A stretch of DNA of 64,000 nucleotides from Rhodanobacter sp. B04 (GTDB lineage Bacteria > Pseudomonadota > Gammaproteobacteria > Xanthomonadales > Rhodanobacteraceae). A program made the translations under genes and the position numbers. The notes under the pieces are model-generated. The model searched no databases and was not told the origin of the DNA. It saw only the letters and a list, made by a program, of their open reading frames with translations. Where the stretch lies: assembly GCF_002001125.1 (NCBI RefSeq), contig NZ_MUNV01000009.1, forward strand, positions 124,001 to 188,000. Reading direction: 5' to 3'. Of the stretch, positions 60,626-64,000 are shown piece by piece (positions within the stretch are counted from its first letter, which is position 1; each line of letters opens with the position of its first letter).

Positions 60626-63304
60626 TCAGCGCATGATCGCCACCGGATCCTGCTTCGCCTTCAGCGCGCTGCACAACTGGATCGATTCGCTGGTCTGCGC
60701 CAGGCCGCGATCGATGCCGTCGGCGTCCTGCATGCGCGACTTGAAGAATGCCTGCAGGCGATCGTGTTCCGGCTGCGAGCAGCCACCGCCTGCCGCCAGT
60801 CGCGGCAGGTATCCGCCCGCGAAGCTGCCGGTGCGCGCCAGCACCTGCGAGTAGTGCGTCGTGAACCATTGCCACATCGCATCGCGGCCAGTGTTGGTGT
60901 CGCGATCGCCCATCAGCAGCATGGCCATTTCGCCCACCTTGACCTGCTTGTCCAGCGCGAAGTTGCGCACCGCGTCGGTCAGGGCAGGATCCTCCACGCT
61001 CGACAGGCCACCGAGGATGCTGTTGCGCAGCGCTGCGTCGCTGGTCTTCGGCAGCTCGCCGAGCAAGGCATCGACTGCCGGCTTGCCCTGCTCCTGGGCA
61101 GCCACGCCCAGCGCATCACCAAGCAGATCAGGATCGGCTGCAGTCAGATCCAGGCGGCCATCCGGCCTGGGCTTGAGTGCAGCCTCACCCTGCCTGAGCA
61201 GGGCTGCGCGCACTTGGGGCAACTTGAAGTCGAACGCCAGGCTGCTGGCGAGCGTGCTGCGCAACAAGGCATCGCCCTCGGATTCGCCCGCCTTGCGCCG
61301 GTAGCCAAGCTGTTCCAGTCGCGGCAGGTAGGCGTCCTTCACCCATGCGGCCAGACGGGCACGCTGGGCATCGGTGGTGGCTTCGTTGTGGTAAATCCAT
61401 TCGACCTGACTCAGCGGAGCGGTGCTCACCTCGCGGATCTTCGAGCTCGTCAGCGGCTGCAATGCCGCCAGCACGTCGCCGGCATCCAGATCGCCATGGC
61501 GGAAGCTGGCGTTGACCGCGTCGGCATACGCCAACTGCTCGGCGTCGCTGAGCTTGCCGACCTGCTTGATCAGGCCGCTCAGTTCGGTCTTGCCCAGGCT
61601 GAAGCGGTAATAGCCGCTGGCATTCGCGTTCGGCATGATCCAGGTCGGGTTGCTGGCGTCGGCCAGCACCATCGAGCCGGTCGCCTGGTCGAGCATGTCG
61701 CAGCTGACCTTGCTGCCGTCCGCCGTGCCGTAACGCACGCACACCGGCACGCCCCAGATGCGCTTCGCATCGCCACTGCTGCCGACCGGCAGGTAGCGGC
61801 TCTGGCTCAAATGCAGCACGGTCTTGCCATCCTTCTGCTCCAGCCTGGTCTGCACGTAAGGCACGCCGGACTGGTCGAGGAAGCTGTTGAACGCATGCTT
61901 GAACGCGTCGCCCTTACCGGCGGCCGTGGCGATCGCGCCGACCAGATCACTGGCCACGGCATTGCCGAACTTGTGCTGCTGGATATACGCCTGCATGCCT
62001 TTCTGGAAGGTCTTCTCGCCGACGTAGTTCTCGAACATGGCGATCACGCCGGCACCCTTCTGGTAGGTGATGCCGTCGAATGCGGTCTCGATGTCGCCAT
62101 TGCCGGTAATCGGCTGGCGGATCTTGCGCGCGCTGACCAGGCTGTCGCTGCTCATCGCACCCTGCACGCCACGCACCCGGTCGAGATCGGCGCGGTATTC
62201 CGGATGCACCTGCATCGTCACCTTTTGCTGCATCCAGGTGGCGAACGCCTCGTTGAGCCAGATGTCGTTCCACCATTCCAGCGTCACCGTGTCGCCGGTC
62301 CACTGGTGCGCCAGCTCGTGCGCGGTGACGTTGAACGACCCCTGCACGTTGCGCGCCGGCGAATCCTTGTCGAGCAGCAGCAGCCAGTCGCGGAAGGTGA
62401 CCAGGCCGGCGTTCTCCATCGCACCGGCGGCGAAGTCCGGCGCGGCGAGCACGTCGAGCTTGTCCCACGGATAACCGAAGCCGTAGTAGTTCTCCAGCGC
62501 CTGGATGATGCTCGGCGTCTCGCCGAGCACATGCGACATGCGATGGGCTTCGCCGGCGGAGGCGATGCCGCGTAGCGGCAGCGGCGTGGAACGATAGGCG
62601 TTCGGCGCGATGTCCGGACCCTTGGCGATGTCCCATGGCCCCACGCCGAACGCCACCAGATAGGTCGGCAGCGGCAGCGTCTGCGCGAAGGTCAGCGTCT
62701 TCCAGCCGGCACCGGCCGGCGTCTCCTTGGTCTGCTGGGTGTTCGCCACCGCGGTATCGCTATCGGGAATCGTCAGGCTGATATCGAATGGCGTCTTGAA
62801 GCCTGGCTCGTCGAAGCTCGGAAACGCGAAGCGTGCGCTGATCGGCTCCATCTGCGTCATCGCATACGGCTGGCCCTTGGCGCTGACCTTGTACAGGCCC
62901 TGCAGCTGCGCATTGAGCGGCGCGGTGTAGTCGAAGCGCAAGGTCAGCTCCTGCGGCTTCAGCGTGCTGCCGAAATCCACCCGCACCACGCCGGCCTTGG
63001 GATCCGCATTGACGTATTTGCCCGCATGCACCTTGCCGGCCGCGTCGGTGATTTCCACCTTGGACACTTTCAGCTCATTACCGTCCAGCCACAGGTGGTC
63101 GGAAGCCTGGGTCAGCTTGACCTTGATCGTGGTGGTGCCGGAGAAATCCTCCTTCGCCGGATCGACCTTGAACGACAGCTGGTACGACTGCGGCACCGCC
63201 CAGTGCGGCAGGCGGCCCTGGGGCGCTTGTTCGGTGGTGGCGAATGCAGCACCGCAGCAGGCGGCGAGCGCGGTCGTCAGGAGGGGGCGAACGATGCGGC
63301 GCAT
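60626..63304 (-). CDS. M1-family aminopeptidase, exported
   Basis: An 892-residue zinc aminopeptidase. A signal peptide (LLTTALAACCGAAFA-T) directs it to the periplasm. The exopeptidase motif GAMENAG and zinc motif HELAHQWTGD with NEAFATW are intact, and an ERAP-like helical C-terminal domain follows. It differs from cytoplasmic PepN in its signal and sequence. AGGGAAAG precedes the ATG at 63304. The C-terminus ends KQDPVAIMR. Confidence 0.92.
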   Translation of the reverse strand: MRRIVRPLLTTALAACCGAAFATTEQAPQGRLPHWAVPQSYQLSFKVDPAKEDFSGTTTIKVKLTQASDHLWLDGNELKVSKVEITDAAGKVHAGKYVNADPKAGVVRVDFGSTLKPQELTLRFDYTAPLNAQLQGLYKVSAKGQPYAMTQMEPISARFAFPSFDEPGFKTPFDISLTIPDSDTAVANTQQTKETPAGAGWKTLTFAQTLPLPTYLVAFGVGPWDIAKGPDIAPNAYRSTPLPLRGIASAGEAHRMSHVLGETPSIIQALENYYGFGYPWDKLDVLAAPDFAAGAMENAGLVTFRDWLLLLDKDSPARNVQGSFNVTAHELAHQWTGDTVTLEWWNDIWLNEAFATWMQQKVTMQVHPEYRADLDRVRGVQGAMSSDSLVSARKIRQPITGNGDIETAFDGITYQKGAGVIAMFENYVGEKTFQKGMQAYIQQHKFGNAVASDLVGAIATAAGKGDAFKHAFNSFLDQSGVPYVQTRLEQKDGKTVLHLSQSRYLPVGSSGDAKRIWGVPVCVRYGTADGSKVSCDMLDQATGSMVLADASNPTWIMPNANASGYYRFSLGKTELSGLIKQVGKLSDAEQLAYADAVNASFRHGDLDAGDVLAALQPLTSSKIREVSTAPLSQVEWIYHNEATTDAQRARLAAWVKDAYLPRLEQLGYRRKAGESEGDALLRSTLASSLAFDFKLPQVRAALLRQGEAALKPRPDGRLDLTAADPDLLGDALGVAAQEQGKPAVDALLGELPKTSDAALRNSILGGLSSVEDPALTDAVRNFALDKQVKVGEMAMLLMGDRDTNTGRDAMWQWFTTHYSQVLARTGSFAGGYLPRLAAGGGCSQPEHDRLQAFFKSRMQDADGIDRGLAQTSESIQLCSALKAKQDPVAIMR

Positions 63305-63433
63305 GGGCTTTCCCTGGGTTGTGTAGAACACCCACGCTAAGACCCAACATGACTTTCGACCCAGTGCCAGAAGGCATGGCAGCTCCGCGCCCGAAACCCG
63401 GCACACCCGGCGCGCTCCGCCTGCATGAGGGCG

Positions 63434-63468
63434 AAAAAAAGCCGGCGGTGAAATGACTTCACCGCCGG
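63434..63468 (-). terminator. Strong Rho-independent terminator on the minus strand between oxyR and the aminopeptidase gene
   Basis: On the minus strand: CCGGCGGTGAA-GTCAT-TTCACCGCCGG, an 11-bp perfect stem, followed by C and seven T. It cannot serve a plus-strand transcript because there is no T-run on that side. The aminopeptidase gene starts 130 bases further on, so the terminator must end a short transcript that begins between it and oxyR. Confidence 0.88.
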
Positions 63469-63562
63469 TGGGGTCTGCGCATCAGGGAGGGAGGGGACTC
63501 CTGACGCGCATGGGCTGCTGTCGGCCCGTCGGGTGGCGGGGACACCATGGGCGACGCCGACG
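63434..63562 (-). ncRNA. Candidate peroxide-induced small RNA divergent from oxyR
   Basis: About 129 nt predicted, from a start near 63562 (7 bases after TATGGT at 63574-63569) to the T-run of the terminator at 63434. The middle forms a long hairpin at 63476-63510: an 11-bp stem (TGCGCGTCAGG with CCTGATGCGCA, one G-U pair) whose 13-base loop holds CCCCTCCCTC. C-rich loops of this kind pair with Shine-Dalgarno sequences in known small RNAs. Position and control resemble E. coli oxyS, but there is no sequence resemblance that I can see. No good open frame with a ribosome site is present. Expression is inferred, not shown. Confidence 0.6.
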
Positions 63563-63568
63563 GCACAA

Positions 63569-63597
63569 ACCATAGAACCCATGCTTGCATCGTTCAA
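63569..63597 (-). promoter_or_regulatory. Sigma70-type promoter firing away from oxyR
   Basis: On the minus strand: TTGAAC (63597-63592), a 17-base spacer and TATGGT (63574-63569). It abuts the OxyR site at 63598-63634, the position used by OxyR to activate target promoters. Confidence 0.7.
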
Positions 63598-63634
63598 ATT
63601 GATTGTTACCATCGCTGCCATAGGTTGAATCTAT
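63598..63634. promoter_or_regulatory. OxyR tetramer-type binding site
   Basis: Read on the minus strand: ATAG-N7-CTAT-N7-ATGG-N7-CAAT, against the OxyR consensus of four ATAG/CTAT elements with 7-base gaps. The first half-site is perfect, including the inner T and A positions (ATAGATTCAACCTAT); the second half has one change in each tetramer. It is 20 bases before the oxyR start and directly upstream of the -35 of the divergent promoter. It could therefore repress oxyR and activate the other promoter. Confidence 0.75.
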
Positions 63635-63653
63635 TGCTTCAGCGAGGCGCACG

Positions 63654-64000
63654 ATGAACCTGCGGGATCTGCAATACCTGGTGGCACTGGCCGAACATCG
63701 CCACTTCGGCCGCGCCGCGGACGCCTGCTTCGTCAGCCAGCCGACCCTGTCCACCCAGATCAAGAAGCTCGAGGACGAGCTTGGCGTGCCGCTGGTCGAA
63801 CGCACGCCGCGCAAGGTGCTGCTGACCGAGGTCGGCCGCGACATCGCCATCCGCGCACGCGACGTGCTCAACGAGATCGAGCAGATCCGCGGCGTGGCCC
63901 GGCGCACGCTCGATCCGGAATCCGGCACCGTGCGGCTGGGCATCTTCCCGACGCTGGGCCCTTACCTGTTGCCGCACGCGCTGCCGCTGGTGCGCGCGGC
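63654..64000 (+). CDS. oxyR: LysR-type peroxide sensor OxyR, N-terminal part (continues past window)
   Basis: The first 115 residues: the winged HTH (MNLRDLQYLVALAEHRHFGR AADACFVSQPTLSTQIKKLE DE) and the linker helix with GIFPTLGPYLLPHALP, which is characteristic of OxyR rather than other LysR proteins. The redox cysteines would lie beyond the window. AGCGAGG-type purines precede the ATG. The upstream region holds a matching OxyR site, which supports the name through expected autoregulation. Confidence 0.85.
   Translation, partial: MNLRDLQYLVALAEHRHFGRAADACFVSQPTLSTQIKKLEDELGVPLVERTPRKVLLTEVGRDIAIRARDVLNEIEQIRGVARRTLDPESGTVRLGIFPTLGPYLLPHALPLVRA

Follow-up and report, generated by a model that had tools for sequence, protein, structure and literature searches.

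A predicted small RNA divergent from oxyR in Rhodanobacter, probably formed by the two retained ends of a lost ahpC gene

Beside oxyR, which codes for the peroxide sensor of Rhodanobacter sp. B04, and reading away from it, lies a locus that probably encodes a conserved small RNA under OxyR control, as predicted from the DNA sequence. It is likely that this small-RNA gene combines both ends of an ahpC gene that has itself been lost and, thus, represents a 3′UTR-derived RNA that has outlived its host gene. The stand-alone form is best explained by the loss of ahpC and ahpD because the same unit appears in relatives as the promoter and the 3′ end of ahpC, which encodes a peroxiredoxin partnered with AhpD. 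For this reason, the earlier sequence-only reading of the locus as a convergent or ancient stand-alone solution of the oxyS type is not the favored one. Origins of small RNAs have mostly been deduced from single cases, and here both states, the gene with its RNA tail and the RNA alone, are present in relatives. If the reading is true, a peroxide-response small RNA exists beside oxyR that is not descended from OxyS.

Architecture of the predicted RNA locus

Within the window (the whole 64,000-nucleotide stretch of DNA that was analysed), the locus occupies positions 63434–63634 of the minus strand. It comprises the following features together with its two neighboring genes:

63598–63634, minus strand: OxyR-type site ATAG-N7-CTAT-N7-ATGG-N7-CAAT, 16 of 16 letters matched
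63569–63597, minus strand: promoter TTGAAC-17-TATGGT, read from the sequence and missed by a generic scan
63434–63562, minus strand: predicted small RNA of about 129 nt, its start placed from the promoter
63520–63561, minus strand: 5′ stem-loop of the leader, a predicted fold whose sequence is not conserved
63476–63510, minus strand: C-rich-loop hairpin (loop 63487–63499), homologous to the ahpC 3′-end hairpin of relatives
63434–63468, minus strand: intrinsic terminator, a stem at 63468–63442 followed by C and T7 down to 63434
63654–64000, plus strand: oxyR, with its ATG at 63654, coding for 320 aa and running past the window end
60626–63304, minus strand: aminopeptidase N-like gene, starting at 63304 downstream of the predicted RNA

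The OxyR-type site is located 20 bases upstream of the start codon of oxyR. Its full score of 16/16 compares with shuffle maxima of 6–12 (435 shuffles, made from the 140 bases upstream in each of 145 loci), so that this element is present as it was first read. The central hairpin at 63510–63476 is likewise confirmed, with an 11-bp stem and the C-rich loop AGUCCCCUCCCUC. The 129-nt strand folds at −62.3 kcal/mol (z −6.2), and none of 200 shuffles folds as well. The promoter boxes follow the site directly on the minus strand, with TTGAAC at 63597–63592, a 17-base spacer, and TATGGT at 63574–63569. In a generic scan of positions 62000–64000, this promoter is not among the calls (0 found versus 0.3 expected), and the single terminator called is what chance would give (1 found versus 1.2 ± 1.2 expected). 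Hence, the case for an RNA unit rests on comparison: the letters of the boxes and the stem with its T7 tract are present as claimed earlier, and both the −10 letters and the terminator stem recur in relatives. Rfam covariance models match no family at gathering score in the whole window and none up to E 1 in 63350–63700. The top NCBIfam match of oxyR is OxyR NF008361 (322 bits, slightly below the cut-off of 329), and that of the aminopeptidase N-like gene is TIGR02412 (273.5 bits, below cut-off).

Relatives with and without ahpC

A DNA search matched 22 of 147 family genomes. In G126, which belongs to the same genus, and in G060, the site with the promoter and the hairpin with the terminator match separately, about 600–700 bases apart, because a 179-aa AhpC gene sits between the two parts; behind the terminator comes an AhpD gene. 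At E 1e-90, 220 of 233 family genomes yielded OxyR. The oxyR loci compared here are a sample rather than all 220, composed of 80 fetched stretches, search-derived loci, and the top 80 named loci from a single genome scan, and reduced to 145 loci with distinct oxyR. Among the locus groups, g1 is Rhodanobacter (plus some MAGs and a ‘Dyella sp. S184’), g11 is Luteibacter, g14 and g18 are Dyella, and g5 and g26 are Dokdonella. Behind the OxyR-type site, ahpC is present in 48 of the 145 loci and absent from 97; the window locus contains neither ahpC nor ahpD.

Hairpins were detected with a scanner that looks for stems whose loops are rich in pyrimidines and in C. A first version missed most Rhodanobacter loops and was replaced by a looser one, which is still strict (the hairpins seen by eye in L008 and L057 are missed) and reports a neighboring stem in some rows (e.g., L112 and L130). 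It is positive in 60 of the 145 oxyR loci; among the controls, 870 segments of oxyR coding sequence gave 2 positives and 725 shuffled regions gave 11. The positives comprise 27 of the 48 ahpC-bearing loci (21 have none), 30 of the 67 loci in which the aminopeptidase gene adjoins oxyR, and 3 of the 30 other loci. Where present in ahpC-bearing loci, hairpin and terminator come after ahpC and before ahpD. Stand-alone hairpins occur in g1, g4, g16, g19, g21, Dyella subtropica, and D. marensis, as well as in g5 and g26, there accompanied by no clear site of this type (scores 11–12); the scan gave none in g22, g25, and the other g14 and g18 loci without ahpC. In total, 64 of the 97 loci without ahpC are also scanner-negative for the hairpin, including most Dyella and all 14 g22 loci. 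Hence, the RNA is dispensable there. At least two C-rich-loop stems lie upstream of oxyR in six loci without ahpC, namely L126 and L129 of g5 and L005, L008, L011, and L012 of g4. In L064 (Dyella flava), the region upstream of oxyR contains a 15/16 site followed by a different terminator-like hairpin that has no C-rich loop.

The oxyR tree of 143 loci requires no fewer than 20 switches between presence and absence of ahpC, and a set of 50 rows around Rhodanobacter requires 5; such change counts cannot separate gain from loss. Loss is favored over gain by three findings: the ahpC form is widespread, AhpC and OxyR distances agree, and a decayed ahpC is found in L075. The distances give a Mantel r of 0.66 for 46 loci (permutation maximum 0.26) and of 0.84 for 13 Rhodanobacter loci. 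In L075 (Dyella group, G135), an ahpC piece with 58% identity over residues 77–115 lies directly behind the site, in the place that the whole gene occupies in relatives. In a quick tree, the window locus groups with the stand-alone L029 and with the ahpC-bearing L026, L002, and L038 (support 88–91), and the hairpins of all five have a GTCAG/CTGA upper stem in common; a careful tree leaves the branches around the window locus open. Because of its grouping with ahpC-bearing loci, the loss at the window locus may be young, and most stand-alone Rhodanobacter may have lost the gene independently of it.

The loss of ahpC could plausibly be explained by another peroxidase system elsewhere in the genome. 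Among 45 Rhodanobacter genomes, 15 contain an AhpD-type AhpC (E below 1e-100) and 30, including the genome of the window, another AhpC, at 36–41% identity, in its place; none contains both. In the genome of the window, this second ahpC (G000:C27:201787-202260, L227; TIGR03137, 348 bits) is followed by an AhpF gene (TIGR03140, 810 bits), AhpF being confirmed by family model in this genome only. It is preceded by an OxyR-like site of 14/16; in the nine loci read, this site scores 14 in eight and 12 in one, a value that shuffles of the latter match. Of the twelve stretches in one fetched set, three (L236–L238) were left unused. We infer that an AhpC–AhpF system displaced AhpC–AhpD.

Conservation of the unit and its retention after ahpC loss

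Covarying stem changes had been expected upstream of oxyR in related genomes, and they are found. In an alignment of 36 selected sequences, 96.0% of cells pair, and both sides change in 13 of 19 pairs, of which 4 belong to the C-rich stem and 9 to the terminator stem (9 of its 11 modelled pairs). On each of five measures, all 500 shuffles fall short of the observed value, and scores drop sharply when the partners are slid. The sequences derive from the 60 scanner-positive loci after leaving out those without a T run, duplicates, and ten loci removed by hand (L005, L011, L012, L112, L130, L019, L035, L037, L127, and L128); of the 42 then listed, six more were dropped (L040, L065, L067, L068, L071, and L114). 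Because of this selection, the alignment favors sequences that align. A second alignment covers 17 of the 21 stand-alone Rhodanobacter loci. Herein, 9 of 22 pairs change on both sides, including 2 of the C-rich stem. Pairing within that stem is seen in 99.4% of cells; the measure of further pair types is matched by 222 of 500 shuffles in this set. Across all 21 loci, conservation reaches 1.0 in the site, 0.75 to 0.95 over the hairpin, and 0.94 at the terminator end; it is 0.55 to 0.62 in the leader and 0.32 to 0.41 in the spacer that comes after the terminator. The same loci share the −10 letters CTAT..T. Site, hairpin, and terminator thus recur together in relatives, in line with the joint conservation that had been anticipated.

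A covariance model was built from the hairpin and terminator of this family. In the genome of the window, its single good match is the window locus itself (E 9e-11; next 0.39). Among 250 genomes of the order, 25 matched with one match each, all of them Rhodanobacteraceae, in a search that may miss distant forms because it used stricter filters and the family-built model. All matches but one adjoin oxyR (24 of 25), the exception in G014 being weak (8e-4).

These patterns bear on the possibility that the locus is a neutral relic, in which deletion removed ahpC and ahpD and left behind a promoter, hairpin, and terminator that are yet to decay, with the terminator shielding the aminopeptidase gene from read-through. 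The quick-tree grouping of the window with L026, L002, and L038 agrees with this, since the loss may be so recent that retention here alone could be inertia, and so does the hairpin-negative majority of ahpC-less loci (64 of 97). Nevertheless, we consider it unlikely: in the stand-alone Rhodanobacter loci the hairpin is far better conserved than the spacer, stand-alone loci show compensatory changes, and a terminator by itself has no need of a C-rich hairpin.

The preferred reading of a retained RNA gene also draws on the co-occurrence of site and hairpin. With the site counted as present at 13 or more of 16 letters, the 97 loci without ahpC divide into 29 with site and hairpin, 6 with the site only, 4 with the hairpin only, and 58 with neither (Fisher p 1e-14). 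Two of the site-only loci (L008 and L057) have a hairpin by eye, and one of the hairpin-only loci (L050) has a site with one inserted base. After correction for kinship, the link is not significant, with 8 independent pairs of which about 3.5 go the same way (median p 0.25) and usually none, in a few pairings one, the opposite way. That the peroxide switch and the RNA tail are kept after loss of the gene suggests that the RNA has its own job.

An improbable alternative is that the hairpin acts in cis only and has no target in trans: it would once have stabilised or terminated the ahpC message and would now serve as a leader or roadblock ahead of the aminopeptidase gene. This alternative would account for the position of the hairpin at the ahpC 3′ end in relatives and for a search that gave no conserved trans target (see below). 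However, loss of ahpC removes the message to be stabilised, and site and hairpin are nevertheless retained together; moreover, the terminator separates the hairpin from the aminopeptidase gene. The proximity of the site to the oxyR start codon would fit a site kept for the control of oxyR, the RNA being a by-product. Against this, the mean site score in aminopeptidase-adjoining loci is 15.53 with the hairpin (n = 30) and 10.65 without it (n = 37), the latter close to the shuffled range. The site scores low where the hairpin is absent and, therefore, seems to persist for the RNA and not for oxyR, which makes control of oxyR a very improbable reason for its retention. Hardly credible is a DNA structure or a small-protein gene in place of a regulatory RNA: the complement strand is indeed G-rich (GGGAGGGAGGGG) and 8 of the 21 stand-alone Rhodanobacter loci contain a frame of at least 10 codons within the span of the predicted RNA (one such frame is common to a few close relatives), but the other 13 contain none, the paired stems covary and are followed by a terminator, and the element stays with the ahpC 3′ end, about 600–700 bases from oxyR.

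Known small RNAs, proposed mechanism, and candidate targets

OxyS of Escherichia coli is encoded by a short RNA gene divergent from oxyR, located behind an OxyR-type site and with a terminator at its end. The window RNA, as a retained small RNA, is predicted to have the same layout: it is short, divergent from oxyR, and framed by an OxyR-type site and a terminator. The resemblance in layout but not in sequence that had been remarked on before is borne out, as the window RNA, unlike OxyS, matches no Rfam family and by comparison descends from the ends of ahpC. Small RNAs derived from 3′UTRs are a known bacterial kind. Like these, the element forms the 3′ end of an mRNA and uses the terminator of that mRNA in ahpC-bearing relatives (27 of 48 by scanner); unlike in these, the host gene is gone, and transcription of the RNA would start directly from the former mRNA promoter. 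Among the literature matches listed, no title or abstract start deals with a small RNA from the ahpC 3′UTR or, in Rhodanobacter, with one controlled by OxyR.

Another point of comparison is sX13 of Xanthomonas, which belongs to the same bacterial order. In its published account, sX13 maps downstream of polA; its three stems end in C-rich apical loops, which repress messages with G-rich motifs, hfq among them (PMC3771888). As in sX13, the C-rich loop of the window RNA could face G-rich motifs near start codons. The window RNA differs from sX13 by its location between oxyR and the aminopeptidase gene and by having one C-rich loop instead of three; two are found in some loci of the Dokdonella group and of g4. 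Hence, the window RNA is OxyS-like in layout, perhaps sX13-like in its loop, and by the tests made a member of neither.

The following course of events is proposed. In the ancestral state, OxyR would have activated ahpC through a promoter pointing away from oxyR, in the gene order seen by comparison. The ahpC message would have ended in the C-rich-loop hairpin and terminator, homologous across the relatives compared, with ahpD behind them. In this and other lineages, ahpC and ahpD would then have left the locus, displaced by an enteric-type AhpC with AhpF elsewhere. Site, promoter, hairpin, and terminator would have stayed and would now yield a peroxide-induced RNA of roughly 100–130 nt. By analogy with sX13, the loop CCCUCCCUC would most likely pair with G-rich ribosome-binding sites and lower translation under peroxide. 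In relatives that keep the gene, this regulator would be part of the ahpC message or be released from it. We lean slightly toward the view that the ahpC message was an mRNA and a C-rich regulatory RNA in one, whose coding part was dropped in more than one lineage, the promoter and the RNA being kept as an OxyS-like small RNA. It follows as a prediction that the ahpC 3′ end is already a regulator in species that keep ahpC.

A target search for GAGGGAGGG-N0-15-ATG gave scattered matches in 35 of 45 genomes, with no repeatedly matched gene and the genes mostly unassigned; one match in the genome of the window reads as a protease-like protein. GGGG precedes 11 and GGGGAG 1 of the 123 long ORFs of the window, counted in all frames and hence not all genes. 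An hfq gene is present in the genome of the window and in 20 of 21 Rhodanobacter genomes searched, and AGGGGAGAACAA stands immediately before its ATG in 18 of 20 loci read. GGGGAG is complementary to the loop CUCCCC of most stand-alone relatives, and to the loop of the window with one G–U pair. Duplexes of the loop with the 20 hfq starts range from −16.3 to −19.7 kcal/mol, in a comparison confined to selected genes, against −8.4 to −14.2 kcal/mol for the starts of oxyR, ahpC, ahpF, the aminopeptidase gene, and the gene downstream of oxyR (from L001:2825 onward), which from its sequence we take to be rubrerythrin-like. The hfq start region is, thus, a lead as a candidate target of the predicted RNA.

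Upstream of the aminopeptidase gene, a GTGCCTTCTGGCAC-like palindrome with the bases next to it occupies 63331–63380 on the minus strand and is probably a promoter or regulator site of that gene. By this palindrome, CTTCTGGCAC is 0.99 conserved across the 21 stand-alone Rhodanobacter loci.
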